Source of the DNA: Symbiodinium sp. CCMP2592 | Lineage: Eukaryota; Sar; Dinophyceae; Suessiales; Symbiodiniaceae | Length of the DNA: 64,000 bases | Assembly (NCBI GenBank): GCA_905221615.1 | Contig: CAJNDT010000003.1 | Span: 1,364,062-1,428,061, forward strand | Direction of reading: 5' to 3' | Shown here: one piece after another, positions 36,229 to 54,847 of the stretch | How positions within the stretch are numbered: the first letter of the stretch is position 1 | How the letters are laid out: every line of letters begins with the position of its first letter | Notes under the pieces: model-generated | What the model saw: only the letters and a program-made list of their open reading frames with translations | What the model was told of the DNA's origin: nothing | The model's database searches: none | Made by a program: the position numbers and the translations under genes

Positions 36229-37334
36229 ATCCCTAAACCCTAAGCGCCAGACCCGAAACTCCCAAAACCCATAAGAGTGTGAAAGGTGGTTGATCAGCTC
36301 CAAAAGTTGGTCAAGGGGGCGCCGAGGAATATCCAGGATCCGGGTTTCGGCAGTTTCTAGGTGCATTCAGGGATCTAGGATTTCGGAAAGTTTCTTACTT
36401 ATCGGGATTTAGGGTTTCTGCTGTTTCTAGGTGCATTTACAGATCCAGGATTCCGGATGGTCTCTTTGGATGTAGCGGTGTAGGGTTCAGTTTTCGTTGG
36501 GTGGGATTTGCGATGTAGTCTCCAGGGTTTGTGGAGGGTTGCTCCTTGGGGTTAGGGATTCGGGAGTGAGGTGGGGTTGAGGGCCAAAGGAGTTAGGGTG
36601 GTGGGGTTCACGGATGGGAGGTTAAGGGTGAAAGGTGGTTTGGGTTTCAGAGTTCAGTCCAAACTTCCTAAAGCGCCCCTTACAGCACCCTAAAAGTAGC
36701 AGTACCCCTTATAGTATCCTTGTGGTAGCCTTGTTTACCATCACTATAGAATCTAAGGGTCCAAAGGACGTAACAATTAGGTATTCGTTTTCAGGACAGT
36801 GGTTTTATGCAAGTTACTTTTTTGGAGAGTATGTGTTTTTTTGATACTTGGACCTTTGGGCAGAATTGCTCTGCAATTTATGCCCTCGCCTACGTCCGGG
36901 TTACTATGGCTTGGGAGTCCCCGAACAAAAAGTTAAGAACAGATCTGGTAAGACCATTTCGTAGCTTTACAAGCTTCCTATCCTTGTCTCGTTTCCTTAA
37001 TGGGACCGACGGGTCTGTCCTGCTTGAACCCTGAACCCCGAAACCTTGTAAGCCATATAAACCCTACAAACCCTATAAGCCCAATAAGCTCCATAAACCG
37101 AAACTCTGGGACCTGGAGTAGGCCCTTATTCCCTTTTTGTAGGGCTCAGGTTCCCTTATAAGCCACTTTAAACCAAAAAGGGCAGCCTTTTTATTCCTAG
37201 GCTACTATTGGGTTTAGAACTACACCCTAAACAATAAAATCGGGATCTACAGGGTCGAGGGTTCAAGGTGTAGGTTAAGGGTTTAAGGTTACTGGTTCAA
37301 GGTTACGTTTAGGTTTACGGTTAAGGGCCCGAGG

Positions 37335-37485
37335 CCCCTCAACTGGGTTTGGGGTTTAGGGTGTAGGGTGTAGGGTGTAGGGTGCAGGGTTTAGGGTTTA
37401 GGGTGTAGGGTTTAGGGTTTAGGGTGTAGGGTTTAGGGTTTAGGGTTTAGGGTCTAGGGTTTAGGGTTTAGGGTTTAGGGCTCGC
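37335..37485. repeat. Telomere-like array, G-rich, TTTAGGG/TGTAGGG
   Basis: About 20 units in register; TGTAGGG variants alternate with TTTAGGG as higher-order blocks. Confidence 0.95.
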
Positions 37486-40044
37486 CTACATAGATGATTT
37501 GACTGATCTGAGGATCGGCAAGGACTTGCAAGGTTTTCTTTCCTAGTGCTTGTTTATCAGGCTCCCATGAGCTCGAGTATAATGACTATTGATTAGAGCT
37601 GTCAGGCGTGTTCTTGCTTTTTCGTCAAGTTTTCCGTTTTCGGGTCATGTTTCCTACCATAGGGCCATAGGCGGCCATAGGGACGATCTCGATAAAGTCT
37701 ATCTGGCGCCCGCCTTCAAAGGGGAATGGAGAGAGCGAGACTCTTGGTAGAATTCAGGGGTTCCGGGTTTAGGGTTTAGGGGTTTAGGGTTTAGAGTTTA
37801 AGGTTTGGGGAGGACCGAGCCATTTGGGTCCGGGGATGTTGTGCAGGGTGTTATCACCTTGCAAGTTCTTACACGCCGTTAGGGTCTAGGGCTCATGTAC
37901 ACTTTAGGGTTTAGGGTTTATGTATCGTTTAGGCTTTAGGGTGTATGTATAGTTTAGGGTTTAGGGTTTAGGCTTTGGTTCTACAGACTGGTCTGCATTA
38001 GACTAAATGTCCTTCCAGAAGTTTCTCTCGCAGCAAAGCTTCGCTCATGGATACTTGACGGGGAGTGTTTTTTAAGAGCCCTTGCGTGAAAGGGTCTGTG
38101 AGTGCGACAAATACTGCAGGATAAGATGGCCGGCCCCTTCCATGGATTCTACGATTTCTGGGGTGGGGGCCTCAGGTATTGAGGCCTGCGCAGGCTCTTG
38201 CAAGGTTAGTGTCACTCCGCAACCATCATGCCCACTGCAGCAAAAGCGCGGGAATCCGAAGTAAGCATGTTTGCTTACCGAACAGTGGGTGCTCAGGGTT
38301 CAGAACGTCTGGTCCAGCCTAACTCAAGTAATATAACTGGCCTTTAAGCTGTTGCTACCTTCTTGCAAACCCTGTGAACAAAAAGAAGAAGTCCTTGTCA
38401 TGTCAGGACGCATCAACAAGTTAAGTCCCCAGTAGCCCTAGATCAAGAAGTCAGGGCTTCTGAACACTCGGGTGTTTGTTTATGTAGGGTCCCTAAACTA
38501 AGGATCAGTGAACATGTAGGCTGTTCCGTCAGTTTGCTGATGTGCCCCACGTGGCTGCGACACGTCTCAACCTGGATAAGGACGCACCTTGCGAACAGCA
38601 ACCTAGTGCTGAAGCCACCGCAGCCGCAGCTCAACCTGAGTCAATCTGCAGTGCCGGCAGAAGCACCGCGTCGCCCGGAGCCAGAGCCAAAGCGGCAGCA
38701 TAAAACGTTGTTTCAAGCTAAATAAGGAAGCCAGCTAGAGAAGGATGTGGGTTGATTCCTTTTGTCAGCATTAATCATGTTGTGATTATTGTTCCAACCG
38801 CTGGTTGAAGTGCTTAATGCCTGTAGTTACAGGCACTCGTGCTACTACTGCTGCTACTGCAACCGCGACCGCCACGCCACGGCCTTCTTGACCCTCATCA
38901 TGAATTCCAAACCCCAAACTCTAACAACTAAACCCTAGCCCTAAACTCTGGACGTTGAAACTCCAAACACTATGATTAAGCCCGACATAGCCCTGTAATT
39001 GCAAACCTCCAAACCATCGGTTTAGGGTTTAGGGTTTCAATGTTCGTTGGCTTGGCCACCTGAGGCAACAAGACCAACAAGCCCCTGAGTGCACAGAGCT
39101 TTCTCGGCATCCTCGAGGATTTGGAGGCGGGTTTTCTTACGATCAGGGTTCAGAGCCCGACGGTATAGAGTTTAGGGCTTAGAATCGAAAGTTTAGGGTG
39201 TAGGGTTCAGAGATGGTTTTCAACTTGCTTTCTGTTCTTTGTTAGAGTTGTGTTTTGTGCGCGTTGCAGTTCGGGGGTCGGGTTCCAAGTTTTCGTGGTT
39301 CCGGAGGTTTGGGGGATACTTATTGCAGCGTTCAGAACAGTGGGAATCCCGGTTTGTCGCATGATGCCCCAGCTAAAACCGAACACCGCACCTCAAGTCT
39401 GTTGCCGAAGTAGTTGAACAACAGACTGCTGAAGGAAGACCAGCTAACAAGGCATTCGCATCACGACAAGCTTGTGTAAAGCTACATTGAATACCCTATT
39501 CAGTCTACACCAGACTGTATTGCCAACAAACAGCAACACCCTGACCTTCTTTAAGCCTAAAGCCCTACACCCGCATGAGTCAAAGTATCATTACACTTCA
39601 GTTACCGTCATCACGGAAATCTTTGGCAACGGTTAAACCATTCAAACCAACACGGGCTCGTGGCTGAAGGGGCTCGTTCTTCAATCTAGGGTTTCGGGTT
39701 TACGGGAATGGATAGGGTTTTGGGTGAAGAAGGGGCTTGGTAGTCATTTCCATACAGCCTGCGAGGGTTGCAGATGTGATGTCGCATATGAGCATTTGAA
39801 CTAGGGAACTTGGACACTTGGGTATCGGTGTCTGTACATACACCAGTGGTTGTTGGTGACCACTTACATACAAACATATATCCCTGCAGTCCCTACATAG
39901 TTACAGGCGAAGATACCCCAACTTCTTTTTATTTGTGTTACAAAACTCTATTGCTATTCCAGGACGTCTTCCCTGTGCCAGCCAATGGCGATGGAGACGC
40001 AGGCGAGGTGAGTCCTCCCCTCGCCTCGGCTTAGGGGTTGTTTA

Positions 40045-40049
40045 GGGTT
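40045..40049. other. Target-site duplication (left)
   Basis: GGGTT, identical to 48,780-48,784. It lies inside a TTTAGGG-type heptamer. 5-bp duplications are normal for Copia integrase. Confidence 0.9.
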
Positions 40050-40265
40050 TGCAAGTGAAATCACTTGTACGATGAACCTCCTCACCGCAGGTGGAAGCCT
40101 CATCGGTGTATCTCCCGACGCAGATTCGACAGGTCAAGAAAGGGAGCCCAAAAAGAGAGGCCGCTGTAGCTCCGTTAGCCGAGCCATCAGGCCTCCGTGA
40201 CTGGGTTCCTCTGACTTTCGTTCTCCTTGAGCACTCGAAGACTTCAGTCAGCTACCAGACTTTCA
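40050..40265 (+). repeat. 5' LTR, 216 bp
   Basis: Starts TG and ends CA. A 7-bp inverted repeat CAAGTGA/TCACTTG lies at 40,052-40,067, possibly a regulatory site. The LTR is short and open in one frame throughout, which gives spurious 60-codon ORFs in both copies. No TATA box was recognised. Confidence 0.95.
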
Positions 40266-40278
40266 TGGTAGCGGAGCC
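40266..40278 (+). promoter_or_regulatory. Primer-binding site (tRNA-iMet type)
   Basis: TGGTAGCGGAGCC follows the LTR with no gap. It resembles the complement of the 3' end of initiator tRNA-Met (TGGTAGCAGAGG in many eukaryotes), the normal copia primer; one or two mismatches to that reference. Confidence 0.75.
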
Positions 40279-40322
40279 CTTGTGGCTCCAAAACCGATCC
40301 GGGGACCTATACTGCTGAGCGA

Positions 40323-40338
40323 TATTTTCCCTCTGCAG
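40323..40338 (+). promoter_or_regulatory. Putative spliced-leader acceptor before gag
   Basis: ATTTTCCCTCTGCAG, a pyrimidine tract plus AG, ends 35 nt before the gag ATG. Dinoflagellate mRNAs get a trans-spliced leader at such sites; use here is inferred. Confidence 0.4.
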
Positions 40339-40373
40339 GACAAGAGTCTGTAGCGAGAGTGAAGTGAGCAATC

Positions 40374-42272
40374 ATGACAGAGATTGCCCGATCGAAAGAT
40401 GGAGTGCCTATCTGGAATGGCGAAGCAGGGACGTTCCAGGAGTTCGAGGAAACGGCCCTGGTATGGGAGCAGTCTATTGCTCTCAACAAGCGATACCTCT
40501 GCGGCCCAAAGCTCCTGGCGGAGCTGACCGGAGCCGCAAAACGGCTTGTCGCGGGGAAGCGACATGACTGGGTGTCGCACAACGGGGGAGTGCAAGATCT
40601 TATGAAGCACCTGCGAGCTTGTTTGGGGAAGCCAATGGTGTCTGATTTGACCGAGCACCTGAACAGATATTTCAAAAGTTCGAGGAGACGGCCCAATGAG
40701 AGCATGAACGATTATATCACTCGGAAATGTGAGGTGTATCTTCGTGCATGCCAAGCTCTACAGCGAGTCATACCACATCATGAGACGACAGGACCGACCT
40801 CGACTACCGGGACCAACCGAGGCCTTCAGAGCCGGCGATCCAGCTGGGACTCAGCAGGAGTCGCCCCCACAGAGGCCGCTCCGGAGGTTCAGGCCGCAGC
40901 ACCTGTGAGCGCCACAGGAGCGGCCGATGATGATGATGAGGAGCATGAAACATCGGAGCAGGGCCCGGATGCTTGGAGCAGCTATAACTGGCAGTGGCGA
41001 GGCAGTCAGAACTGGTGGTGTGGAAGCTACGGGGGCTACGGCAACTACCAAGGCAGTTGGGCCAACTACGGGGATCGAGATGCAGGGTGGTCGCCACCAG
41101 ACCACTGGAGACCCTCTCGAGAGGCCCCTACCACCACGATGCCAGAGCTGCTACCAGATTTTGTTCAGGGATGGTACCTGCTGCAAGACTCCGGTCTGGA
41201 CCAGAGCGAGCGCAACGTGATCATGGCGGCTTTGGGAGGAGAGTTCACTCTCCAAAGAGTCGCCCAGGAGCTACGGACGCAATGGTCCGGGCAGGAAGCA
41301 GCGCGACGCAGAGAGCAAGGAGGCCGCCAGAGCGGCTTCCTAGGCGACGCCGCCGCAGATGAGCCAGACCAAGAAGCAAGTGACCTCATTGCCGAGGAGT
41401 TCGACAACGAGCTCGACGAGGAGGGGTACGCGATGGTGGCCGAGGCAGAGGAGGATGCCCAGAGTGCCATGGCAGCCATGGACCAAGCGAAGCGGACACT
41501 AAGGGCTGCCCGAGCCCGCCAGCACAACGTCCGCATGTCACGGCAGTACTATCGCGCCTCAGGCAAAGGCTTCTCTGGAGGAGGCCGCGGCAAGGGCGGT
41601 ACAGTACCCGATGATAGCAAGATGACGTGCATGCGATGTGGAAAGCAGGGGCATCGCATTGCAAACTGCCCCCATCCTCCACCCAGTGCCAAGGTGGCAG
41701 AACAGGTGGAGGCCACTTCGTCATTCATCTGCTTCAACGACGTGGAGAATGAGGCAGCTTACGTGGCCGGGATCACTACGGCAGAAGCCGTTCACCAAGG
41801 GAAGGCCGTGATCGACGGCGGGGCCACTCGTACGTTGGCCTCGATCTCGGCCATGGAAGCCATCATGGCCCTCAACCAATCCAAGCATGGCCACAACGGC
41901 GTGGCCGCAGTCGACCTGAAGGAGAGGCCGGTGTTCGGATTCGGAAACGGCTCGGAGAATCAATGCGCGTCAACAGTTCAGTTGAAGATCGCCGCGAACA
42001 GTGCGCCGCGAGTCCTGAAGGTCCATTGCTTGGATCATGGGAGTGGCCCCCTGCTTTTGAGCGTGGACTCATTGAGGAAGCTGGGCGCCATTGTCGATTT
42101 TGCTGAGGACCTAGTTTGTTTTCGTAGTTTGGATGCTAATCAGGTGATACAAGTCGAAAGGTCTGCCACAGGACACCAGTTGCTACCGATGACCGACGAC
42201 TTGATGAAGCAGGCGAAGGCCACGAAGCTGGCCATCCCGAGCCTGCGCGAGTACCTGGCTGAAGAGGGCTAG
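40374..42272 (+). CDS. gag: Gag-protease polyprotein, 632 aa
   Basis: It packages the element RNA and carries the maturation protease. The first ATG after an in-frame TGA (40,365) was chosen. Residues 1-140 resemble dinoflagellate copia Gag (WNGEAGTFQEFEE start, then SMNDYITRK). The middle has an acidic DDDDEE patch and Trp/Gly/Tyr-rich stretch. A CCHC zinc knuckle is at C419, C422, H427, C432 (CX2CX4HX4C). A retropepsin-like active site D481-G-G-A-T lies within VIDGGATRTLAS; the usual motif is D-S/T-G, so Gly in the second position is unusual. It ends at TAG 42,270. The same frame then continues to pol after one stop codon. Confidence 0.9.
   Translation: MTEIARSKDGVPIWNGEAGTFQEFEETALVWEQSIALNKRYLCGPKLLAELTGAAKRLVAGKRHDWVSHNGGVQDLMKHLRACLGKPMVSDLTEHLNRYFKSSRRRPNESMNDYITRKCEVYLRACQALQRVIPHHETTGPTSTTGTNRGLQSRRSSWDSAGVAPTEAAPEVQAAAPVSATGAADDDDEEHETSEQGPDAWSSYNWQWRGSQNWWCGSYGGYGNYQGSWANYGDRDAGWSPPDHWRPSREAPTTTMPELLPDFVQGWYLLQDSGLDQSERNVIMAALGGEFTLQRVAQELRTQWSGQEAARRREQGGRQSGFLGDAAADEPDQEASDLIAEEFDNELDEEGYAMVAEAEEDAQSAMAAMDQAKRTLRAARARQHNVRMSRQYYRASGKGFSGGGRGKGGTVPDDSKMTCMRCGKQGHRIANCPHPPPSAKVAEQVEATSSFICFNDVENEAAYVAGITTAEAVHQGKAVIDGGATRTLASISAMEAIMALNQSKHGHNGVAAVDLKERPVFGFGNGSENQCASTVQLKIAANSAPRVLKVHCLDHGSGPLLLSVDSLRKLGAIVDFAEDLVCFRSLDANQVIQVERSATGHQLLPMTDDLMKQAKATKLAIPSLREYLAEEG
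42270..42272 (+). other. Single in-frame TAG between gag-pr and pol
   Basis: gag-pr and pol are in the same frame, separated by this TAG and 12 sense codons before the pol ATG. Readthrough would give a Gag-Pol fusion; alternatively pol may be made from its own trans-spliced mRNA (see 42,279-42,295). Confidence 0.6.
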
Positions 42273-42278
42273 GGACAG

Positions 42279-42295
42279 CTCCTTCATTTCTCTAG
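42279..42295 (+). promoter_or_regulatory. Putative spliced-leader acceptor before pol
   Basis: GCTCCTTCATTTCTCTAG, a good pyrimidine tract plus AG, ends 13 nt before the pol ATG at 42,309. Inferred role. Confidence 0.4.
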
Positions 42296-42308
42296 TTCCG
42301 CGGGGAAA

Positions 42309-45300
42309 ATGAAGGACCAGCGACTTTTTGCGGAACCCGGGGTAGAGACCAAACCGAATCCCAGTCTTGTACAGATGGCTGTGAACGGGTCTGGTTATAG
42401 TGGGGTTAGTGTTAGTCAATCTGCTTCTCCGGCTGTGTATGTGACCCAGCCTCAGAAACCTGTGCTGACTGAGCAAACTTCGTGTCAAGACAGCCGTCCT
42501 GTGAGCGATTCCCCTCCTCGGTGTGAGGGGCATGGCCCTGGCTCTGAGCAAGATGAATGCGATGACCAAGGAGCAGCTCAAATCCCATCTCTTCGAGGTT
42601 TACCACGAGCACGCCTACCACAAGTGGACCAAACTGGAGATTCGTCAGAGAATCCTCGAGTTGCAAGGCGACGATGTGGATGCCCTGCCACGTGGACCTC
42701 AGATGACGGCGACCGAAGCCGCCGTCAAGGAGGTGCGCAAAGCAGCCAAGAAGAAAGTGGATCTGGTAAAGCTATGCACCGAGAAGTACCAGATGGAAGT
42801 GAATCGCAACGACACGATTGCCATCCTGGAGGCCCGCGTCCTGAAGATCATCTATGCGACCGAGGTGCCGGAGGCGGGCGACATCATCGGCTTCGGCAAG
42901 AACAGTACGATGCACTACCAGGACATGCTCCTGCCGGAGTTCGAGAACTATGCGCAATGGGTGCTTCAGACAGCACGGGAGAACCCAGGAACCGGATGCG
43001 ACCCAAGGTTGTATCGTTTGGCCCGCTGGTTGGAGGGAAAAGTGTTGGCTTCCAGGAAGCCACAGCCCAAGACGAAGGCCAAAGTGATCTTTCCCCCGAC
43101 GAAGGACTACGAGGCCTATGTGGAGGAAGCAACGTATCCGTCGGCCGGAGCCCAGAGCAGTCACGAGCACATGAAGGATCAGGACAAGAAGATCGAGGCG
43201 CTCACCGAAGTGCTGAGCGAGATCAAGAACGAGCTCCGGGAGATGAAAGGGGAAAAGTTGCGCAAGCAGAGCGGCTACCAGAAGGAGGCCCCGGACTCCG
43301 AGATGACGGAATCCGACGCCTCGTTTTACAAGATCCATACGCCACCGACGAGCAAGCCGTCGAAGGAGTGAGCGGAACCGCCGCAGGCTTAGATGCGGAC
43401 GAGGGGCCAGGTCCAATCCTTAGTGCGTCTGCGAAACTTAGCCAGCAGTTACGAAGTCAATCTACGCGGTTCAAGCAGCTTAGTGAGCAACAGTCTAGAA
43501 CCCTGGAGGAACAGGGTTCCAATGTGGTGCCAGGTTTGTTTCAGGATCTGGTGGGCTATAATCGTCCCGTTTTGCCGCAGTATAGTCATCATGCAGATAC
43601 CCACCTCACTCAGGCAGTGCAGGAACGTGCAAAAAGCTCAGAAGCTGCCGTGCACTGCGGACCATGGAACGGGTGCGACCTGACCACTAAGGAGGGACTG
43701 AGGTTGTTGCTAGATCGTATCCGATTGGAACAGCCGCAGCATGTGTGGCTGGCACCAGCGACGGGGGCGTATAGTCCTTTGACCAACCTCCAACAACAAA
43801 CGGAGGCACAGCGCGACGAGCTACAGGTACGACGAGCCGAGGCCTTGCGACACTTTGTAGCGTGTGCCTGCGTAGTTCATTTGTGCGTTCAGTTGGGTAT
43901 ACACGTGAGTTGGGAAATGCCAGAGAAGTGTCAGGCCTGGAGGTTGCCACTGTTGAACCAGCTTAGGGATAAGTACGGTTTGCACACGGCAGTCACAAGA
44001 GGTTGCGCGGTGAACCATAGAAGCAGGAAAGATGGACCCCTCATACAACAGGGATGGAAGATCCTTACGTCCCACAAAAGAGTTTCCGAAGGCCTCAACT
44101 TGCCCTGTAGATGTCCTAGACAGTACCAGCATGGACCCTGTACGAACAACCCGAACCCAAACAAAGACTACTACACCAGAGAGTTCGGACAGCGACTGAG
44201 CCGAGTGCTCCAACACGAGCTCTCGTATGAAGCCACTCTTCAGGAGTGCACCGGGGGTACGTCTTTAGTTCAGGGATTTGGAGAAGGGGAGTTTTGTACG
44301 TGCGGGGAGGTATGTCTTCCAAAGGTGCGGCAGGAGTGTTCCAGTTGTCTGAAGGGTAGGTGTCAGCTTCAGGTGGGTTCACAAGTTGAAGCGGCTCATT
44401 GTGTTGGTCCTGAAGAGTTGGAGGAACCGTTGGGTTCAGAGGAAGATCATTCAGGGGACACTTTCGTGGTAGGAGAAGTAGGCCAAGCCAGGTTCTCCGA
44501 TGCCCAAACCGAACAGGTGGAAGCCAAGGCTCAGAGGTTCCTCGAACAACGACAGTTTCATCATAAGGCCTGTGAACAACTGATCCGAGAGCTTCCCCCA
44601 CACCACCTTAAGAACCACCGTAGTGTTGTCCTGGAAGAACGAGCTAGGTACATGACCTTTGGCTTGTATGCGTATGGCAATCACTACGGCATCACTAAAA
44701 GTACCCTGAAGTTCCCGAAGGTGTGTAGGTACGTCCTGGAGTACTTGAGCCACTGGGCTCAGAAGCCTCTGGAATGCACGTCTTTTGTGATCAATGACAA
44801 CGGTACTCTGAGGATACACAAAGATCATCACAATAGGCCCGGCCACAACAATAGTGTCATAGGAGTAACCGCGTACCAAAACGGAGGTCTCTGGATAGAG
44901 GGACCCCCGGGGAACAGCCGTCAGAAAGCCAGCTCCAAGGTGTTGCCCAATGGGCAAACGGTCCTGGGACACACCCTGGAGACCCGACAACGAATGGTCC
45001 AGTTCGATGCGAAGAAATGGCACGCCACAGAGGCTTGGCATGGAGACCGTATTGTGATAAGTGCCTTCGTTAGTCGGGGTTGGGATGTCGTTGGTTCGGA
45101 AGTTCAGGAGACGTTAAAGACTTTGGGGTTTCCAGGTGTTTGGCCGAAAGTAGGAGATGAGGCCATGGTCGTGAAAGGTAGAGGCGCTTGGTCAGGACCC
45201 CTGAAATCCCAAAGTAACAAGGAAGCAGAAGCCATCAAGCGGAAACTCTATCTGTTACATGCGGCGACGGGACATGGTAGCATTAGGCACATGGTGGAAG

Positions 45301-48300
45301 CCCTGAAACGGCGTAATGCTAAGCCCTTGGTGATCAAGTTAGCCAAAGAGTTTACTTGTTCCGTGTGCCAAGAAAAACAGAAGGTGTTACCCCGACAAGT
45401 GGCGTCGTTAGAACCCCTGCCCCCAAAGTTTCATACTGTGTCGGCGGACATCGGGCATTGGATGCATCCGAAGACCCACGAACATCAGAACTTCATGTTG
45501 ATTGTGGATGAGGGTTCGAGATTTCGGGTTGCCAGAATTCTGACGAAAGGCAATAAACAGACGCCCAATGGGGCAGCTTGTACCAACTACTTGTCGGAGG
45601 GATGGTTTCAGGTCTTTGGGAAGCCGAAGACTCTTCGGCTCGATCCAGCCGGAAGCTTCCGTGGAGAGCATATGTCAAGCTTCTGTGACCGCCATGGCAT
45701 TTATCTTGACATAATACCAGGGGAAGCGCATTGGCAGATCGGAGTGGCCGAACAGGCCATTCAAGGAGTGAAGCAGTTGATGGATAAACTGATTGCCACC
45801 GATCCGGACACGAGCGCCGAAGAATGCTTGAGCCTGGCAGTGTCGACCTTCAACCAGCGAGAGCTGATCAGGGGTTTTTCACCGACGCAGCACGTGCTGG
45901 GTCACAGTCCGGATGCCACGGGCAGTCATGTGCAGACCGGGCGACTACCGCCCGAGGAACCCATCCTCAATGACTCTCCTGCCGAGATGAAGCGTCAGGC
46001 ACAACTTCGAGCCGAAGCAGAAAAGGCTTTGGCAGATTGGACAGCCCAACAGCGTGTGACCAAGGCTTTGAACTCACGGACCAGACCTCTGCAACAGTAT
46101 CAGCCTGGCGACTTAGTCTACTTCTGGCGGACACAGGAATCCGGGCAAAGCAAACGCAGTCCCGGGACTCGTCATGGCCGCTTCTTAGGACCCGCGCGAG
46201 TGTTGGCGACCGAGAGCCGCCGAGACGCCAGCGGGAACCAGAGGAGCGGACACGCCATATGGTGCGTCCGAGGTCGTCAACTGATAAAGTGCAGCCCTGA
46301 ACAACTCAGGCCGGCCAGCACCCGTGAAGAAATTGTGGAAGCACTGGCGGAGGACGAGAGCACGCCCTGGACCTATGGGCGATTGGCCAAGGAATTGGGC
46401 GGCAACCAGTATGAGGACATCAGCCATGAGATTCCTGATGAAGGCGAATGGCGCCGAGCTCAAGATACCACGCAGGAGCCAACGCCCTCACGGTTCCGAG
46501 TGAGCCGAAAGCGACCACCACCGGACGCCACAGCCGAGGAATCCATGGACGAGCTGTTTGTCACGGACAAAGACGGTGTGCCCAAGCTGGCAGGCCGAGA
46601 CGAGGCGACTTCTTCCAGCAGCAAGACGGCCCCACAGGATACCCTGCAGGGCTACAGCTGGTGGTCCGAAGTCAAAGCAGAGGCATGGCGCAGCGAGGAT
46701 ACAAGCCACTGGGCTGATGAACAGGCAGCAGTGGCCGTGGAAATTGAGATGCCTGATCAACCGCGATGCTGGGAACAAGCCACACGCGACCTAGGCGTTT
46801 ACCTGGCCAGCGCGCTCAAGAAGCGCGCCGTGGAAGTCTCCGAGAAGAGACTTACACCTGGCGAACGAGAGCAGTTCAAGGCAGCCAAGATGATCGAAGT
46901 CAAGAATTTCTTGGCCGCCAATGCCTTCGAGGCCCTGCCAGACAATCTGAAGCCCAGTAAAGAGCAGGCTGTGGGAATGAGATGGATCCTGACATGGAAA
47001 ATGCAGGATTCCGGTGTTCCGAAAGCCAAAGCCCGAGCAGTCCTGCTCGGGTACCAGGACCCCGCCTACGAACATAGATCGACAACAGCTCCTGTTATGA
47101 CGCGACAGACGAGACAACTTCTTTTGCAGCTTGCCGCAAACCGCCGCTGGCGCATCATGAAAGGTGATGTGAGCGGCGCCTTTTTACAAGGGCGCGAGTA
47201 TCCGGATGAACTGTTTTGCATCCCATGTCCGGAAATTTGCAAGGAGATGGGTTTACCGCCAGAGTCGGTGACACGTCTCAAAAAGGCTTGTTACGGCCTG
47301 GTTGACGCACCTCTGGAGTGGTACAAAACAGTTGCTACATATCTTGAGAGCCTGGGACTGGAAAGACTCTGGTCTGACGCTTGTGCCTGGGTATGGCGGA
47401 AAGATGGGCAACTTAGAGGGATGATTTCGGGACATGTCGATGATTTTATTTTTGCTGGGGATGATCAAGATGCAGAGTGGCAGGCTTTGTTGCAAAAGAT
47501 CAAGAACCATTTTAAGTGGGGCGACTGGGACATGGACACTTTCACGCAATGCGGCGTCCAGGTGGAGACTACCAAGGATGGGTTCAGCCTGTCTCAACCG
47601 AGGTACCTGGAAGGTGTGAGCGAGATACATGTGAATGCTACTCGCCGGAAGGAGCGAGATGCTGAGACCTCAGTGCGTGAGAAGACGCAACTTCGTGGTA
47701 TCTTAGGTGCTTTGAGCTGGCACAGCCAGCAAGTGGCACCACACCTAGCGGCAGACGTGAGTATGATGTTATCTGAGGTGCCCCAATCCAAGGTGGAAAC
47801 AATCTTCAAAGCCAACACGTTGTTACAGCATGCTAAGGCCCGCAACTCTCACAAGCTGAAGATCCAACGATGCGTGAGCGAGGACATGGCAATGATTGCC
47901 TGGGTGGACGCAGGCAGCCAGAACCGCTGGGATGGCGGTAGCACGCAGGGCATCGTCATTGGAGCAGCTCCCGCTCGTCTTCTAAAAGGAGATGTGACTC
48001 CTGTGTCTTTGATTGCCTGGCACTCTAACCGTATTGACCGAGCATGTCGCAGTCCGGGGGCAGCGGAAACACAAGCCGCGGTCAACGGAGAGGATGCATT
48101 ATATTTCGCACGTTTTCAGTGGAGTGAAATGTTGTATGGCAAGGTGAATCCTCGTCAACCAGATTCTGTAGTTTCCCGAGTACCTGGTTGCTTGATTACA
48201 GATTCGCGGAACGTGTATGACAAGCTCTCTTGCGAAGTTCTAAGCATCAAGGGTGCCGAAAAGCGGACAAACATCGAAGCCTTGGCTTTGAAGGAGTCTC

Positions 48301-48542
48301 AGCAAAACACGGGCTTGATCATCAGATGGGTGCATTCAGAAGCACAGCTGGCAAATTCGCTCACAAAGCAGGGCGGAAAGAATGAAATTGAACTGTTCTA
48401 TCGGATGGGACAGGCTTGGAGGATCGTGGAAGATCCTCACATGAAGTCAGCACGCAAGCGCAAGGAAGAGGGACTTGAGCCACTTGCGCAGACGGAGAAG
48501 CAGATAGGGGTTGATAATAACCAGACGGTTTTACAGCCATAG
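42309..48542 (+). CDS. pol: Pol polyprotein, 2,077 aa, with extra domains
   Basis: It makes and integrates the cDNA. Order: N-terminal segment; about residues 72-355 where the frame is open but looks like a shadow of the overlapping +1 ORF; methyltransferase-like region 445-650; Cys cluster 663-685; dioxygenase-like region 765-925; integrase with H984, H989, C1017, C1020 and D1047, D1112, E1148 (last two spaced DX35E), then a basic C-terminal domain near 1262-1337; reverse transcriptase about 1525-1770 with D1620 (GDVSGAF) and D1711-D1712 (HVDDF); RNase H about 1860-2040 with D1867, E1920, D1965. The fourth RNase H position, usually D in ADxLTK, is N2016 (LANSLTK). ATG at 42,309 has A at -3. 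Confidence 0.9.
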   Translation: MKDQRLFAEPGVETKPNPSLVQMAVNGSGYSGVSVSQSASPAVYVTQPQKPVLTEQTSCQDSRPVSDSPPRCEGHGPGSEQDECDDQGAAQIPSLRGLPRARLPQVDQTGDSSENPRVARRRCGCPATWTSDDGDRSRRQGGAQSSQEESGSGKAMHREVPDGSESQRHDCHPGGPRPEDHLCDRGAGGGRHHRLRQEQYDALPGHAPAGVRELCAMGASDSTGEPRNRMRPKVVSFGPLVGGKSVGFQEATAQDEGQSDLSPDEGLRGLCGGSNVSVGRSPEQSRAHEGSGQEDRGAHRSAERDQERAPGDERGKVAQAERLPEGGPGLRDDGIRRLVLQDPYATDEQAVEGVSGTAAGLDADEGPGPILSASAKLSQQLRSQSTRFKQLSEQQSRTLEEQGSNVVPGLFQDLVGYNRPVLPQYSHHADTHLTQAVQERAKSSEAAVHCGPWNGCDLTTKEGLRLLLDRIRLEQPQHVWLAPATGAYSPLTNLQQQTEAQRDELQVRRAEALRHFVACACVVHLCVQLGIHVSWEMPEKCQAWRLPLLNQLRDKYGLHTAVTRGCAVNHRSRKDGPLIQQGWKILTSHKRVSEGLNLPCRCPRQYQHGPCTNNPNPNKDYYTREFGQRLSRVLQHELSYEATLQECTGGTSLVQGFGEGEFCTCGEVCLPKVRQECSSCLKGRCQLQVGSQVEAAHCVGPEELEEPLGSEEDHSGDTFVVGEVGQARFSDAQTEQVEAKAQRFLEQRQFHHKACEQLIRELPPHHLKNHRSVVLEERARYMTFGLYAYGNHYGITKSTLKFPKVCRYVLEYLSHWAQKPLECTSFVINDNGTLRIHKDHHNRPGHNNSVIGVTAYQNGGLWIEGPPGNSRQKASSKVLPNGQTVLGHTLETRQRMVQFDAKKWHATEAWHGDRIVISAFVSRGWDVVGSEVQETLKTLGFPGVWPKVGDEAMVVKGRGAWSGPLKSQSNKEAEAIKRKLYLLHAATGHGSIRHMVEALKRRNAKPLVIKLAKEFTCSVCQEKQKVLPRQVASLEPLPPKFHTVSADIGHWMHPKTHEHQNFMLIVDEGSRFRVARILTKGNKQTPNGAACTNYLSEGWFQVFGKPKTLRLDPAGSFRGEHMSSFCDRHGIYLDIIPGEAHWQIGVAEQAIQGVKQLMDKLIATDPDTSAEECLSLAVSTFNQRELIRGFSPTQHVLGHSPDATGSHVQTGRLPPEEPILNDSPAEMKRQAQLRAEAEKALADWTAQQRVTKALNSRTRPLQQYQPGDLVYFWRTQESGQSKRSPGTRHGRFLGPARVLATESRRDASGNQRSGHAIWCVRGRQLIKCSPEQLRPASTREEIVEALAEDESTPWTYGRLAKELGGNQYEDISHEIPDEGEWRRAQDTTQEPTPSRFRVSRKRPPPDATAEESMDELFVTDKDGVPKLAGRDEATSSSSKTAPQDTLQGYSWWSEVKAEAWRSEDTSHWADEQAAVAVEIEMPDQPRCWEQATRDLGVYLASALKKRAVEVSEKRLTPGEREQFKAAKMIEVKNFLAANAFEALPDNLKPSKEQAVGMRWILTWKMQDSGVPKAKARAVLLGYQDPAYEHRSTTAPVMTRQTRQLLLQLAANRRWRIMKGDVSGAFLQGREYPDELFCIPCPEICKEMGLPPESVTRLKKACYGLVDAPLEWYKTVATYLESLGLERLWSDACAWVWRKDGQLRGMISGHVDDFIFAGDDQDAEWQALLQKIKNHFKWGDWDMDTFTQCGVQVETTKDGFSLSQPRYLEGVSEIHVNATRRKERDAETSVREKTQLRGILGALSWHSQQVAPHLAADVSMMLSEVPQSKVETIFKANTLLQHAKARNSHKLKIQRCVSEDMAMIAWVDAGSQNRWDGGSTQGIVIGAAPARLLKGDVTPVSLIAWHSNRIDRACRSPGAAETQAAVNGEDALYFARFQWSEMLYGKVNPRQPDSVVSRVPGCLITDSRNVYDKLSCEVLSIKGAEKRTNIEALALKESQQNTGLIIRWVHSEAQLANSLTKQGGKNEIELFYRMGQAWRIVEDPHMKSARKRKEEGLEPLAQTEKQIGVDNNQTVLQP
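42532..43371 (+). CDS. Overprinted ORF inside pol, 279 aa
   Basis: Frame +1 relative to pol. In-frame TGA at 42,502 and first ATG at 42,532 (G at -3, G at +4); ends TGA 43,369. Codons mostly end in G or C, as real genes here do, while the pol frame over the same DNA gives Gly/Arg/Ser/Glu-rich noise. The protein is helical: MTKEQLKSHLFEVYHEHAYH and VDLVKLCTEKYQMEVNRNDT look like two weak SAP-like helix pairs, then a charged coiled coil near residues 205-245 and an acidic/Thr tail. It is preceded by a pyrimidine tract and GTGTGAG (AG at 42,527). Possible accessory nucleic-acid-binding protein; family unknown. Alternative: two compensating frameshifts within one ancestral polyprotein. Confidence 0.7.
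   Translation: MALALSKMNAMTKEQLKSHLFEVYHEHAYHKWTKLEIRQRILELQGDDVDALPRGPQMTATEAAVKEVRKAAKKKVDLVKLCTEKYQMEVNRNDTIAILEARVLKIIYATEVPEAGDIIGFGKNSTMHYQDMLLPEFENYAQWVLQTARENPGTGCDPRLYRLARWLEGKVLASRKPQPKTKAKVIFPPTKDYEAYVEEATYPSAGAQSSHEHMKDQDKKIEALTEVLSEIKNELREMKGEKLRKQSGYQKEAPDSEMTESDASFYKIHTPPTSKPSKE
43641..44256 (+). other. Methyltransferase-like region of Pol (degenerate)
   Basis: Residues about 445-650. It has hallmarks arranged as in cytosine-5 methyltransferase folds: HVWLAPATGAYSPLTNL where a PPC(GP) loop would be, then GIHVSWEMPEKCQAW where the EN(V) motif would be, then a GCAV strand and QGWKILTS. The catalytic Cys of PPC/PCQ is absent (P483-A-T-G), so if homologous it is probably inactive or uses other residues. 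Homology is inferred from motif order, not an alignment. DNMT capture by Symbiodinium retrotransposons is known from the literature. Confidence 0.4.
44295..44363 (+). other. Cys-rich zinc-ribbon-like cluster in Pol
   Basis: C663, C665, C669, C677, C680, C685 (CTCGEVC ... CSSCLKGRC). It could bind one zinc between the methyltransferase-like and dioxygenase-like regions. Confidence 0.45.
44601..45083 (+). other. 2-oxoglutarate/Fe(II) dioxygenase-like region of Pol
   Basis: Residues about 765-925. The iron triad is seen as H837-x-D839 (LRIHKDHHN) and H905 (DAKKWHATEAW); R914 (HGDRIVISAF) sits where the 2-oxoglutarate-binding Arg should. Gly-rich GGLWIEG and FGLYAYGNHYG strands fit a double-stranded beta-helix. 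Spacing and WH..R end resemble the TET/JBP group, which oxidises 5-methylcytosine or thymine. Dinoflagellate DNA contains hydroxymethyluracil, so a thymine- or methylcytosine-oxidising role is plausible; it is not shown. Confidence 0.6.
45246..46318 (+). other. Integrase region of Pol
   Basis: Zinc-binding HHCC (LHAATGH ... CSVC) then the RNase H-like core with D1047, D1112, E1148, then the QPGDLVYFWR ... GPA segment, a small beta domain typical of copia integrase C-termini. All catalytic acids are present. Confidence 0.9.
46881..48425 (+). other. Reverse transcriptase and RNase H regions of Pol
   Basis: RVT_2-type RT: KARAVLLGYQ, GDVSGAFLQG, KACYGLVDAP, HVDDF. RNase H follows directly: WVDAG, AAETQAA, ITDSRN and LANSLTK. 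N2016 replaces the usual last Asp; RNase H activity may be reduced, or another residue is used. Confidence 0.9.
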
Positions 48543-48563
48543 GGGTTTGGGAGCCGGGGGTCA
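48543..48563 (+). promoter_or_regulatory. Polypurine tract region
   Basis: GGGGTTTGGGAGCCGGGGG then TCA before the 3' LTR. Purine-rich but with two T-containing breaks; it primes plus-strand synthesis in this family. Confidence 0.6.
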
Positions 48564-48779
48564 TGCAAGTGAAATCACTTGTACGATGAACCTCCTCACC
48601 GCAGGTGGAAGCCTCATCGGTGTATCTCCCGACGCAGATTCGACAGGTCAAGAAAGGGAGCCCAAAAAGAGAGGCCGCTGTAGCTCCGTTAGCCGAGCCA
48701 TCAGGCCTCCGTGACTGGGTTCCTCTGACTTTCGTTCTCCTTGAGCACTCGAAGACTTCAGTCAGCTACCAGACTTTCA
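48564..48779 (+). repeat. 3' LTR, 216 bp
   Basis: No difference from the 5' LTR was found by eye; TG...CA ends. Confidence 0.95.
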
Positions 48780-48784
48780 GGGTT
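48780..48784. other. Target-site duplication (right)
   Basis: GGGTT, matching 40,045-40,049; followed by further heptamer-like DNA (TTATGGTTTGGGGTTCAGGG). Confidence 0.9.
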
Positions 48785-51110
48785 TATGGTTTGGGGTTCA
48801 GGGTTGAAGGTGCAGGGGTTCAGGGCCACCCCCTTTTCAGGATTTAGGGTTTGGGCTTCAAGGTTGAAGGTTTAGGGCCACTCCATTTTTGGGGTTTAAG
48901 CTTCAGGGTTTAGACTTTGGGGCCACTCCCTTCCTTAAGCTCTATACCCTCAGCGGCCCAAACGGGCCGAGCACCCCTAGTAAAATCCCAGACCTGAAGC
49001 CCTCGAAGTCGCAAGAGCACCCAGGCACCAAAGGCGGGACCCTGGTATAGTACCCTACTGAGTAGGATCGTCAGGCAAGGAACCGTAAACCTAACACGGT
49101 ATCGCGAAAGCCCCATCGTAGCTGCCATTGAGGTCATAACTTTGGTAATCTGCAATCACCTATCGTCCCTATCTCACTATACTATGTAACCCCTAAACCC
49201 CTAAACCCTACACCCCCGGCAAGGCCCAATCTTCAAGGGCTGGCTGCGAACCCGAGCCTCTAAAAACCTTATACGAAGCGAAGTAGCCGGCCCTATGACA
49301 TTTTTCATGGCGCTGGAGCAAGCATCTTTAAAGTAGAATGATTGTGATTCCTTTATTACCCAAGAATTTGAGACCTTCATAGACCCTCGTAGACCCTCTG
49401 AGCTGTCCCGAAAAGGAATTCTTTTTGGGCCCCACTTTAAATTAACGGCCCTATGTCGAGAGCTTCAGGTGGGCCGGCCCCAGCACCAAAAGCAGCGGCT
49501 CCAACCGGAACCGGAGGAAAGGGCAAAGGCTGCGGCATAGGGTTTAGGGTTGTGGGGTTTAGGGTTTTAGGGTTTAGGGTTGCTGTTCATTTGTTCGCTT
49601 TTTGATCTGAGATTTTCTTCCACGTGGTCGTGGACTTCAGATGAAGGCTGTAACTATTCAGAAGCGTACATACAGGGCTTAGAAGGGGTTTGAGAGGCTG
49701 CTTACTACAGGGCCGATAAGCTGTCTGTTCTGCCTTTCATCACGGACCCTAGCTGGACCCTATAAAACCTTTTTTTTAGGGTTCCCGATCATGATTTCCT
49801 TATATAAGTCCTTAAAAAGGTAGGATATCTGGGGTTAGGGTAGCGTTTAGTCAGAGTTTCAAGCTCTGCACCGCAGGGCTACAGGGTTCCAGTCCAGAGG
49901 AGATATTGAGGTTGCTGGGTTTTCGCACATGCGGTTTTGGATGTATTCTCGAGTTGTTGGACTTGCAGTTTGGCATTTAGTTCGGGCTTCGTGCTGTAGG
50001 GAAACGGTTCCGGGCTTCATGAGAAGGGCAGGGGCTTAGGAGGCGGATCTTTGGGCTGCATGTTCTCTAGAGATTGTAGCTGCCCAGCCGAAACCTTTCA
50101 TCGATGGATTGTTCGTGAGGTGAGAGGTTTAAACAGGGCAGCGCAGAAGCCCTTGCAAACACCAATGTAATTCCTTAGGGTTCCATATTATGCTTCTGCT
50201 ATAAGCAGAATATACCGCGAAGCTCACACTGACGATGCAGGCCGCGATATTGCTTCTCCCAAGAATGTCTGCTGCCATAACATACCGCAAAACCCCATTC
50301 TGATGATTGAGGCCCCAATGCTACTTCCTTAAATACCCTAAAACCCCAAAACCCTAAAGCCCTAAAGCCCAAACCCTAAACACTAAACCCTTAAACCCTA
50401 AACCCTAACACCCTAAACTCCAAAGCCCAAAACCCCAAACCCAGGTGACCCTGAACCCTTCTGAACAGGGACGCAGGTGTTTCGAAGAGCCGGGTCTCGC
50501 AGATCGTAACAGCGTGCCGCAATGTCGAAGCCCTTATGGCGACATTGTGGTGGCAAGCCTCAGGTTTGTGCTTTCTGAACGATCTAGAAACCTTCTCCTT
50601 AGCAAACAGCCTAATATAGGGCCCAACCAATTACCAACATTATTCCTCGGGTTCCTTACTACCGCAGAATGTACGACACCCCCAAACCCTATTCTAATGT
50701 TTGCGGCCCCCTACATTACTAAGTTGATTTGACAGAGTCTGACAGGGATTAGGCTTTGTACCGTTCCATGTGCCGATAGTCAGAACATTTCTCTTCATGC
50801 CAAAGAATATGCCACGTCGGCACAAGGACCCTTAGGGAGAGGTATAAACACACAGTGTAGCAGAGTAGAGTGAAGAACCTCAAACCTGAGCCGGAGACCC
50901 CAAAATTTCGGGGAGGTGCGACGACAGCCGCCCCTGCAAGTGGCAAAGGCTCGCACCAGTTTCAGCTCTTTTGTACGCTGAGCAACTCTTCCACCTGTTT
51001 TTTTTTGTGCGGCGCTTGTAAATTCTGTATCCGGTTGTTCGAGTCTACTTTAATTGTCCACGCCAGCGTAGGCTATGGTAGGTTAAGGTAGGCTTCAGAA
51101 GGGTGTACAG
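48785..51110. other. Mosaic region after the retrotransposon
   Basis: Degenerate G-rich heptamers to about 48,910, C-rich ones near 49,190 and 50,330-50,450, G-rich near 49,540-49,580, and a family C TIR element at 50,612. In between, AT-balanced DNA with no supported gene. Confidence 0.6.
50612..50718. mobile_element. TIR element family C copy
   Basis: TAATATAGGGCCCAACCAAT begins it; GGCCCCCTACATTA ends it, with the CCCCCAAACCCTATTC core. Confidence 0.55.
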
Positions 51111-51292
51111 CAGTAGTAAAGTAGTAAAGTAGTAAAGTAGTAAAGTAGCAAAGCAGCAAAGTAGCAAAGTAGTAAAGTAGTACAGTAGCAGTGCAGGCGC
51201 TGTACAGTGACAGTACGGTGGTAATAGGTAGCAGTATAGTAGTAGTACGGTGGCAGTACGGTGGTAGTACAGTAGTAGTAGTAGTAGCAGGA

Positions 51293-51353
<61 letters not shown>

Positions 51354-51600
51354 TGGTAGTGGTAATGGTAGTGGTAGTGGTAGTGGTAGTGGTAGTGGTA
51401 GTGGTAGTGGTAATAGTAGTAGTAGTAGTAGTAGCAGCAGTAGTAGTAGTAGTAGTAGTAGTACTACTACTACTACTACTACAACAGCGCTACACTAGAA
51501 GTAGTAGAACAGTAGTAGTACGGTAGTGGTACAGTAGACGGTAGTAGAAATCAGTAGTACCGCAGCATAGTACAGTAGTAGTACTGACAGTCATGAGTAG
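51111..51600. repeat. Compound microsatellite, TAAAGTAG, AGT, GGTAGT
   Basis: About nine TAAAGTAG 8-mers (51,112-51,185), AGT runs, about ten GGTAGT 6-mers (51,347-51,410), AGT again, then an abrupt flip to ACT at 51,463. Confidence 0.95.
51441..51482. repeat. AGT/ACT microsatellite palindrome
   Basis: An (AGT)n run meets an (ACT)n run at GTAC 51,461-51,464, giving a near-perfect loop-free palindrome of about 40 bp. Confidence 0.85.
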
Positions 51601-51954: not shown

Positions 51955-52953
51955 CATGCTTGGGTTTGCTTAGGAAGGGTCCGAAAGATCCGTTTCAGGA
52001 GTTCGAAAACACAACAGGGAACAAGCAAACAAACTTAAGCAAACAATGGTTTTTGATACCGGTATCTTGGTCCAAAAATAGGCGAGAAACGGTTTGTTTC
52101 GAGCAGAGGATGTCAAACAATTTTCGGCAGCATGGATGTTTTCGTATACAGAAAAGCATGTTTTTTCGCGAAATTTTGCAAGTATGAATTTTTTTCTAGT
52201 CTCTATTTTTCCACTCTTTGACTTGCGTTTTGTGTGTGCATATAAGTAACTTAGACACAAAGACAATCATACGTAAACATTGCCTTGCAGCAACTTATGT
52301 GACTGATGTACAAATATGCATACAGTATGATATCCATATTATATGTATACACACATATGTTACACGTAAATAACCTTAGTAACATTGGTTTCTTGGTCTT
52401 GGGGCTTTTGGTTTGTTGCCATGGCCAAGCAGCCCCAAACCAAACCTCACATAAGAGCTTTCTGGGTTGTTCCCTGAGCAGCAGGCATCCTCAAATTCAA
52501 GCCGAACCCCAACCCCAAGTGAACGCCTTTGAAGAATGGAAGCCTAGGTGATAGTATCTTCAATCCACATTAAAGCCCTCGCATCCCTGAGCAATAAACC
52601 TTCCAAGCCTCAAAAGCCCCAAGCCCGAGCCCTTGGGTTTTAGGGGTTTCGGCTAGCTGTTTAATGGCTGTCCATCGATGGCTATTAAACTACAATTTAA
52701 TGCTTGCCACCTGGCAAGTATTAAATCCAATCTTTGAGCTGTTTAATGGCTGCCTGCTGGCGGTCATTAAACGTTGGTTGCCTAGTCGTAGTCTTAGTGG
52801 CACAGTGACCGACAGCTGACTATCATCCTCTCGTTCAACGTCCACTCTGTGGAGGCCAACCTTCAGGGGAGGGTTTCAGAGTCTAGGTTTAGGGTTCGTT
52901 CAATGGTTGTCGGCTGACAGCCATTGAACCCGGGCTAGTAGGGCTGTTTAATG
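51955..52953. repeat. Large inverted duplication, left arm
   Basis: Reverse complement of 55,221-56,314. The outer 350 bp differ at only a handful of positions; the middle (52,450-52,640) is more diverged with indels. An 80-codon open frame reading LLRKGPKDPFQEFENTTGN is conserved in both arms. Carries hairpin units at its inner end. Confidence 0.85.
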
Positions 52954-53069
52954 GGGGCCATAATTAAACCACACACCCTGGAACCCTGCTGTGCACTAGG
53001 GCTGTTTAATGTCTGCCAGCTGGCAGTCATTAAACCTGTTGACTGGCTCCTAATTGAGGGCCATTAAAC
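52659..53069. repeat. 32-nt hairpin units, cluster 1
   Basis: Units at 52,659-52,690; 52,695-52,726; 52,741-52,772; 52,898-52,929; 53,004-53,035; 53,038-53,069, each 32 nt, plus a shortened one near 52,946. Ends are GTTTAATG/CATTAAAC. The 52,898 unit has GTTCAATG/CATTGAAC: both arms changed together. Inner arm bases differ freely but mostly still pair, some as G-T. Confidence 0.8.
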
Positions 53070-53563
53070 CACACACCCTTAAGCCCTACAGCCCAAGGGA
53101 AGGGTCGCTTGTCAAGTTGCAGGGGTCCTACCACTGAGGGTGCGCAGCTTTAACCAAATATGCGTCTTCGATGGCGGTGGTAGCGGTGGCGCCTGTGTCT
53201 GTTGAGCATGAGTGTGTCAGTGTGTGAGTGAGTGATCACAGAGAGAGAGAGAGAGACAGAGGACAGATGGATTGATCTATCAGAAGGTATGGATTGGGCT
53301 TTAGCCGGCTGGCACCACATGTGGGCACAACCCGCCGCACAAGACAGAAGATAAACCCATACAAAGTCAACTGTGTAGTTCCTAAAAATCTGGACCCCGG
53401 ACCCCGGGCAGCAGGCTGTGGAATGCAGCAACGCAGTGAAGTTCGGCAGCCTTTACACTATGGTCTCGACCCCTTTCTGCATTCTCCAACCTGAATCGAA
53501 TGCGACGAGGCATCATTCCTGATCCAGCAGAGGCTGGAGAATTCAGGGTTTTGGGGTTTTGGG

Positions 53564-53838
53564 ATTAATGGCCGCCAGGATGGCGGTCATTAAATTCACG
53601 GTTAGCGGCTTCGCAGTCAGCATGCTCCCCTACCTATCGGCTTAAGCTTCCATTCCTTGCAGGAAAACTTCGACCTGAGCTCCTTCCCGAAGCCGTCCCG
53701 TGCGCCTCATTACTAGGGCTGTTTAATGCCTGCCAGCCGGCAGTCATTAAACCTGTTTAATGGCTCCCACTTAGGGGCCATTAAACCGCCTACCCTTAGA
53801 CCCCTTGTTTAATGGCGACTTATTGGTGGCCATTAAAC
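53564..53838. repeat. 32-nt hairpin units, cluster 2 (spacer)
   Basis: Units at 53,564-53,595; 53,721-53,752; 53,755-53,786; 53,807-53,838. The middle two are adjacent with a 2-nt gap. Same dyad design as cluster 1, though this region is outside the duplicated arms. Confidence 0.8.
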
Positions 53839-54097
53839 GACTAATCGGCATGAAGTCCTGAACCCTGAGACCTGCACCCTGAAAAACACCAAACCCGCCG
53901 GTGGCGCCTATACACTGTAGGCTCTTCCGTTTGATCCGCTCTGCTTCACCTCCGCTTCCGGTCCAGGCAACTTTGAAGTTCGGGTGACAGGTCTCGTTGT
54001 TGGGAGGTTCGACTTGTACAACAGAGAAGCCCAAAACCCTTAAGCAAACAAATCCTGCAATCCGCCGTTCTACTGAGCGAAACAAGGGCCTGTGCAA

Positions 54098-54327
54098 CGC
54101 GCCGGCTGTTATTTCGGAGCTGGGCGCCCAGCTCCGAAATAAGGATCGGCGCGGGGCGCCTGAGGGCACAAAGGTCTGATCAGCGATGATCGCTGACGGC
54201 CGGTTATGCTAAGTTAGCGCCACGCGCCGGTTGTTATTTCGGAGCTGGGCGCCCAGCTCTGAAATAACAGCCGGCGCGTGGCGACTGCTCTTAGTGTCGC
54301 TTCCAAAAGATCCGCTGGATCTTTTGG
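54098..54327. repeat. Cluster of four GC-rich palindromes
   Basis: 54,098-54,153 and 54,218-54,283 are near-perfect loop-free palindromes with the same core (GGAGCTGGGC/GCCCAGCTCC) and centre, the second 66 bp. Between them is CAGCGATGATCGCTG (54,181-54,195). After them CCAAAAGATCC/GGATCTTTTGG forms an 11-bp stem (54,303-54,327). Confidence 0.85.
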
Positions 54328-54395
54328 GATATATCTCGGTTGTTTTGCAATGGCAATAATAATTCTATATTTATGAGTTCATTCTAGCCTAAGGT

Positions 54396-54838: not shown

Positions 54839-54847
54839 AATCAGTCC

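Follow-up and report, generated by a model that had tools for sequence, protein, structure and literature searches.

Transposons that carry nucleic acid-modifying enzymes have already been published, with methyltransferases in LINE and DIRS elements, AlkB in Gypsy elements and TET in fungal DNA transposons. The Symbiodinium genome is mostly CG-methylated, and DNMTs lie within its LINE and DIRS retrotransposons (PMC5890265). According to that study, Copia elements are without any DNMT domain; its gene count relied on PF00145, and neither dioxygenase nor TET is a term in its text. In orchids, a Gypsy LTR retrotransposon has captured a 2OG dioxygenase of the AlkB type, an RNA m6A demethylase encoded in a separate ORF, and across angiosperms, at the filter applied there, extra domains are confined to Gypsy elements and absent from Copia (PMC9289625). 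Mobile TET/JBP-type enzymes, plausibly anti-silencing, are found in fungal Kyakuja, Zisupton, PHISTA, IS3EU and other elements, all of them DNA transposons and Helitrons, and this December 2025 survey of fungal transposons found TET/JBP in no retrotransposon (PMC12730594). An opinion article on the accessory domains of retrotransposons makes, in its accessible part, no mention of dioxygenase, AlkB or TET (PMC6338049). In the dinoflagellate Breviolum, 5-hydroxymethyluracil (5-hmU) is enriched on repeats, and a role in modulating repeat activity has been suggested (PMC11071213).

Here we describe a Copia element of Symbiodinium sp. CCMP2592 whose Pol is predicted to hold a TET-like 2OG/Fe(II) dioxygenase domain next to a C5-methyltransferase-fold (DNMT-like) domain. 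The element is similar to SymbioLINE-Dnmt and SymbioDIRS-Dnmt3 (PMC5890265) in being a Symbiodinium retrotransposon whose Pol includes or adjoins a C5-methyltransferase domain, but those are LINE and DIRS rather than Copia elements, and their key DNMT residues are conserved. Like the fungal elements it would mobilize a TET/JBP-type enzyme, and unlike the orchid Gypsy it encodes its dioxygenase in-frame in Pol, with a TET-type pocket and beside a DNMT fold. Among the top-ranked titles and abstracts of the literature outside subscription journals and preprints, we found no TET-type dioxygenase in a retrotransposon Pol beside a DNMT-fold domain.

A recently inserted Copia element

The DNA analysed (the window) is a stretch of 64,000 nucleotides from contig CAJNDT010000003.1, in which the element and its parts are arranged as follows.

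40050-48779, + strand: Copia LTR retrotransposon, from the LTR pair plus a 5-bp target duplication
40045-40049 (left) and 48780-48784 (right): target-site duplication GGGTT, before the TG of the 5' LTR and after the CA of the 3' LTR
40050-40265, + strand: 5' LTR with TG...CA ends, same sequence as the 3' LTR
48564-48779, + strand: 3' LTR, from repeat comparison
40374-42272, + strand: Gag ORF, including a CCHC-like zinc knuckle as well as a D-G-G site
42309-48542, + strand: Pol ORF (P0001, 2077 aa), to which the residue numbers below refer as in the earlier reading of this DNA; coding frame from about 43440
42523-43371, + strand: second ORF, not in the Pol frame; rich in K/E, and SAP-like only by eye
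45246-46200 (end approximate), + strand: integrase region with LHAATGH and SADIGHW...LRLDPAG
46950-47618, + strand: reverse transcriptase RVT_2 (P0001 1548-1770; Pfam PF07727, E 3.1e-26)

RVT_2 lies downstream of the integrase, within LTRs that are flanked by the target duplication, and the element is apparently an autonomous Copia LTR retrotransposon. The LTRs measure 216 bp by their TG...CA ends, the exact repeat being 220 nt, and since the two copies are identical, the insertion, or else gene conversion between the LTRs, was recent. In Gag, the zf-CCHC match at 418-434 (E 0.021) is under the Pfam cut-off, and the D-G-G site is presumably aspartic-protease-like. We take LHAATGH to be the pre-integrase motif and SADIGHW...LRLDPAG the integrase core; the integrase was placed by these motif strings, with no match to rve in the window's own Pol at E <= 1 in Pfam, and weak rve matches were found in the relatives P0026, P0027 and P0029. 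Those related proteins that carry an organism name come from Symbiodinium sp. CCMP2592 and KB8.

The GGGTT duplication sits in a TTTAGGG repeat, of which 37331-37487 is an example stretch. TTTAGGG, which we take to be the plant-type telomere repeat, occurs 176 times per strand in the 64 kb compared with about 4 per strand expected (an estimate from the base count, 64000/4^7). Positions 40000-47999, which are nearly all element, contain just one in total, on the + strand.

Pol had been described, from the sequence alone, as having about 3 kb before the integrase. The extra region is indeed present, but its coding length was overstated. Codon scores trained on the remainder of the element preferred the frame of the 42523-43371 ORF from about 42540 to 43250, came near to a tie at 43260-43440, preferred the Pol frame from about 43440 onwards, and were decisive for neither frame at 42309-42520. 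Both the DNMT-like and the dioxygenase domain lie downstream of the switch, in the part that scores as coding. The 42523-43371 ORF gave no match of note in a Pfam scan, and a counterpart is visible in P0005. In relatives such as P0002-P0004, P0007 and P0008 the listed ORF starts with Met near the corresponding switch position, and P0009 shows, by eye, the same sort of shadow-frame leader. In the window the Pol frame has no Met near the switch, so that a frameshift or a non-ATG start would be required; 43260-43440 is a candidate site for a frameshift from the frame of the second ORF into that of Pol.

The dioxygenase domain

The dioxygenase domain and the residues discussed below occupy the following positions.

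44490-45146, + strand: TET-like 2OG/Fe(II) dioxygenase domain, predicted DSBH fold (P0001 728-946)
44817-44834, + strand: HKDHHN, with H837 and D839 as putative metal ligands (from conservation) and N842 at the base-reading position (role per PMC11040006)
45021-45023, + strand: H905, putative third metal ligand, H in 30/30 rows
45048-45077, + strand: R914 (2OG Arg, 29/30 rows), F920 (R+6 aromatic, F or Y in 29/29) and R923 (R+9 Arg, 29/29)

Residues 728-946 were predicted to form a double-stranded beta-helix (pLDDT 90.8), as the sequence-only reading had anticipated in proposing the DSBH fold as a test, and the fold of the model is nearest to TET structures. Every one of the 50 matches in the VIA-align list is a nucleic-acid 2OG/Fe(II) dioxygenase, with NgTET1 first. 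In the structure rankings ALKBH5, FTO and AlkB come closely behind the TETs. TM-scores in Foldseek were modest, the top match reaching about 0.42 by query length, and the 50 matches listed there also include DSBH proteins whose targets are not nucleic acids (JMJD7, PiuC, phosphoglucose isomerase).

H837, D839, H905 and R914 had been correctly placed in the 42309-48542 ORF (44817, 44823, 45021 and 45048), and the triad proved to be conserved in related elements. Across 36 rows, with the window's own and fragments included and gaps set aside, position 837 is H in 31/32, 839 is D in 32/32, 905 is H in 30/30 and 914 is R in 29/30 rows; the exceptions are P0033, with Arg at H837, and P0010, with Cys at R914. 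In an alignment of 23 of the 25 dioxygenase pieces (A1; P0017 and P0022 left out), 17 of 219 columns are invariant, among them H837, D839 and H905, and the chance of all three named columns falling within the invariant set is about 4e-4. R914 is nearly invariant in A1 (22/23 rows), and triad and Arg are kept at identities to the window's dioxygenase domain down to 31%. A chance resemblance to a dioxygenase was rejected on account of this conservation across elements and of the structure ranking.

The pocket can be compared with that of CcTet, where H326, D328 and H376 are the metal ligands, R385 is the 2OG Arg and F391, the counterpart of Tyr1902 in TET2, stacks on the base (PMC11040006). In the same account, the residue three positions after the metal-binding Asp (D+3) contacts the base N4 in TET2 (Asn1387), NgTET1 (Asp234) and CMD1 (Asp350), CcTet has Gly331 there and makes no N4 contact, and a steric conflict between 6mA and a D+3 side chain is reported for TETs. 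By ungapped offsets, which are not a structural superposition, the second His and the Arg of the Copia dioxygenases are nine residues apart, as are H376 and R385 of CcTet; R+6 is aromatic (F or Y) in 29/29 rows, as it is in CcTet; and D+3, counted from HxD, is Asn (N842) in 32/32 rows, as is Asn1387 of human TET2. At D+9, the position that aligns without gaps to CcTet Asp337, 32/32 rows keep an Asn (Asn848). Arg is invariant at R+9 (29/29) with Ser at R+8 in 23/29 rows, and the base-O2 contact of TET/JBP enzymes, an Arg or His, is at R+8 (R393 in CcTet). AlkB was represented by the E. coli sequence alone (translated here), in which the spacing from H187 to R204 is +17, R+6 is Arg (R210) and D+3 is Glu. 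The AlkB family is marked by RxxxxxR, with a second Arg six residues beyond the 2OG Arg; this second Arg is absent from the Copia dioxygenases, all 29 scorable rows having F or Y.

With the His-Arg spacing of +9, the aromatic R+6 and the Asn at D+3, the pocket is TET-like by the sequence positions compared, and not like that of E. coli AlkB. The nearest solved TET/JBP enzymes, NgTET1 and CcTet, share about 12-14% identity with the Copia domain, without a profile match, and the latter differs from them in its Arg at R+9 instead of R+8 and in being encoded inside a retrotransposon Pol.

The DNMT-like domain

The predicted methyltransferase-like domain and its motifs precede the dioxygenase.

43566-44366, + strand: C5-methyltransferase-fold domain, catalytic Cys lost (P0001 420-686; structure prediction and motifs)
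43755-43778, + strand: motif IV site, PATGAYSP here and PPCGPFSP in many relatives, from alignment
44106-44141, + strand: C-x-C-x5-H-x2-C cluster (C600, C602, H608, C611), invariant in 19 A2 rows
44295-44348, + strand: C-x-C-x11-C-x2-C cluster (C663, C665, C677, C680), invariant in 19 A2 rows

The claim that the part before the dioxygenase has the motif order of a C5-methyltransferase but no catalytic Cys held, with PATGAYS in the window and PPCGPFS in many relatives. A Rossmann-like fold, also proposed as a test, was borne out by the structure prediction. VIA alignment of the model of residues 420-686 gave a C5-methyltransferase fold, but Foldseek by itself returned no match at E <= 0.001, mostly generic Rossmann rows and the first DNA C5-methyltransferase at rank 28; assignment of the fold thus draws on the VIA alignment and on the motifs in relatives. 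The structure matches to C5-methyltransferases end at model residue 231 at most and leave the second Cys cluster uncovered.

The motif IV residue is Thr in the window's copy. Motif I, which in E. coli Dcm is the glycine-rich DLFAGIGG, reads LxEVACxxxS in relatives, without a glycine loop, and the window's copy has also lost the Glu and Cys; P0032 was left out of the alignment behind this reading of motifs I and IV. The Glu of motif VI is present (E536) and is Glu in 60/67 rows with a letter. The methyltransferase-like part had been called reader/writer-like; the loss of the motif IV Cys and of the motif I Glu and Cys makes it very unlikely that the window's DNMT-like half is a writer. An active writer-plus-eraser pair in the window's copy was rejected on the same residues.

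Both Cys/His clusters (44106-44348) are, judged by their residues, likely zinc sites. Their invariance refers to alignment A2, with 19 of the 23 DNMT-like pieces (P0004, P0016, P0017 and P0022 left out). In the 31-row A3, which combines 18 whole proteins with 12 pieces and that of the window, two residues of the first cluster are invariant and two stand at 90% or more. A3 includes truncated rows, and none of its invariant columns holds a residue of the second cluster.

Profile and pattern searches

Pfam held no usable family for either domain, and the PDB sequences recognised neither. Pfam matches below E 0.01 were few and look like chance, for example CMC4 (0.0027) and Gemini_AL2 (0.0014), seen in 1 and 3 members. 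None of the 2OG families in Pfam reached E 1 in 23 dioxygenase members, although these profiles may not extend so far, and PF00145 gave no match at E 1 in the members scanned here. There was nothing usable in NCBIfam for the DNMT-like domain or in PHROGs for the dioxygenase, where phrog_6059 (queuine tRNA-ribosyltransferase) matched weakly around HxD in 6/23 members (best E 0.00066; P0020, E 0.0031) and not in P0010, P0013, P0021 or P0024. Alignment of the DNMT-like profile with E. coli Dcm alone by hhalign gave nothing. One peptide pattern per domain found no relatives in viral contigs, and one dioxygenase pattern found none in prokaryote genomes. Since the profiles tried miss both domains, such captures may be overlooked.

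Domain pairing and repeated loss of the catalytic Cys

Both domains are present in 26 of the 32 proteins P0001-P0032, the window's included, a count that is biased towards pairs because the search query spanned both domains. P0026, P0029 and P0030 carry the DNMT-like domain only, and P0027, P0028 and P0032 the dioxygenase only. Motif IV could be scored in 58 of 76 DNMT-like rows, and 47 of the 58 have Cys. With a dioxygenase in the same ORF, the Cys is present in 12/23 rows and lost in 11/23 (7 Ser, 2 Thr, 1 Ala, 1 Gly); without a detected dioxygenase it is present in 35/35. Three of these are long Pol proteins, and the other 32 are short ORFs, which may or may not belong to an element with a dioxygenase. 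The contrast gives 6e-6 in Fisher's exact test, with rows that are related to one another, and is not significant against the 3 long Pol proteins alone (p 0.24).

We placed 46 of the 76 rows (coverage 55% or more, motif IV present) on a tree, where the Cys-less state requires 8 changes, of which branches with good support impose at least 5. Cys is kept in every row of one supported clade, whose 18 members (2 long Pol, 16 short ORFs) lack a detected dioxygenase. Cys is also present in P0026, which branches outside this clade and is a long Pol that lacks the dioxygenase.

In 16 elements having all four domains (120 pairs), the pairwise identity of the dioxygenase correlates with that of the integrase (0.90) and of the reverse transcriptase (0.86), and that of the DNMT-like domain with the integrase (0.81). 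Mean identity is 38% for the dioxygenase, the lowest of the four, 47% for the DNMT-like domain, 60% for the integrase and 66% for the reverse transcriptase. Divergence of the DNMT-like domain relative to the integrase has a median of 1.58 where both partners are Cys-less versus 1.39, and is thus only a little faster. By these sequence comparisons, the dioxygenase has been part of these elements for a long time and has changed fast except at its catalytic positions, and the DNMT-like domain is kept after loss of its catalytic residue.

Two further layouts hint that the dioxygenase was captured or shuffled more than once. P0031 matches rve but, at E 0.1, not RVT_2; its dioxygenase lies upstream of a different, Dcm-like methyltransferase with SPPCTTFS; this layout is tentative because of shadow-frame-like stretches and by far the longest branch in the tree. 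P0032 is a Copia-type Pol with a MATH-like match, and its dioxygenase is located between an SH3-retrovirus-like stretch (E 0.047) and RVT_2.

Proposed function and alternatives

We think it somewhat probable that this Copia Pol encodes an active TET/JBP-type dioxygenase together with a DNMT-fold pseudoenzyme, acting on 5-methylpyrimidines and allowing the element to evade silencing. Processing of Pol would keep the domain pair together with integrase and reverse transcriptase; having lost its catalytic Cys, the DNMT-like domain would bind or position DNA; and the dioxygenase would oxidise C5-methylated pyrimidines, most likely 5mC, on element DNA or at the insertion site. Such oxidation would block or dilute silencing marks in a host lineage with most CG sites methylated. 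Fresh cDNA carries no 5mC, and the point of action is therefore guesswork.

The close structural ranking of ALKBH5, FTO and AlkB, together with the published RNA demethylase activity of the orchid Gypsy AlkB (PMC9289625), could instead point to an AlkB-type demethylase that acts on RNA (m6A or similar) or on alkylated bases of the element's transcript. We consider this unlikely, as the His-Arg spacing, the aromatic R+6 and the Asn at D+3 fit TET and not AlkB, represented by the single E. coli sequence; in addition, the reported clash of a D+3 side chain with 6mA in TETs (PMC11040006) and the DNA-methyltransferase fold of the adjoining domain speak against it. Slightly less probable again is a JBP-like thymine hydroxylase that would place 5-hmU on element DNA and render new copies host-like or less accessible. 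The 5-hmU of dinoflagellate DNA, with its enrichment on Breviolum repeats and suggested role in repeat activity (PMC11071213), is in keeping with such an enzyme, and T, unlike 5mC, would be available as substrate in fresh cDNA, whereas the Asn at D+3 is that of TET2, which reads 5mC (PMC11040006). We give least credit to the view that Pol carries the two domains as inert passengers or structural spacers: the DNMT-like half has repeatedly lost its catalytic residue, and conservation among the four Pol domains is lowest in the dioxygenase, but near-perfect retention of the metal triad and Arg at such low identities, and of a DNMT-like domain that diverges only slightly faster, speaks for selection.

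If the preferred TET/JBP-type dioxygenase is active, the element would be a case of a retrotransposon oxidising DNA marks instead of writing them, and it would bear on which enzymes place dinoflagellate 5-hmU and on the concentration of this base on repeats. A more far-reaching and doubtful proposal is that the element-borne enzyme itself writes 5-hmU (or 5-hydroxymethylcytosine) on dinoflagellate repeats, with the dead DNMT serving as its DNA-targeting arm; part of the 5-hmU on transposable elements would then be made by the elements themselves.

Other features of the window

Downstream of the element, an inverted repeat of 196 nt (91% complementary) lies at 52635-52830 and 55344-55539, 2.5 kb apart, with a second inverted pair at 52267-52328 and 55939-56000. 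Together the repeats at 52267-56000 are possibly those of a terminal-inverted-repeat element. Dense low-complexity arrays of AGT-based triplets, CAACCG/CAACCA hexamers and AAGAGCATAAGC units occupy 51096-51526 and 54395-54846.
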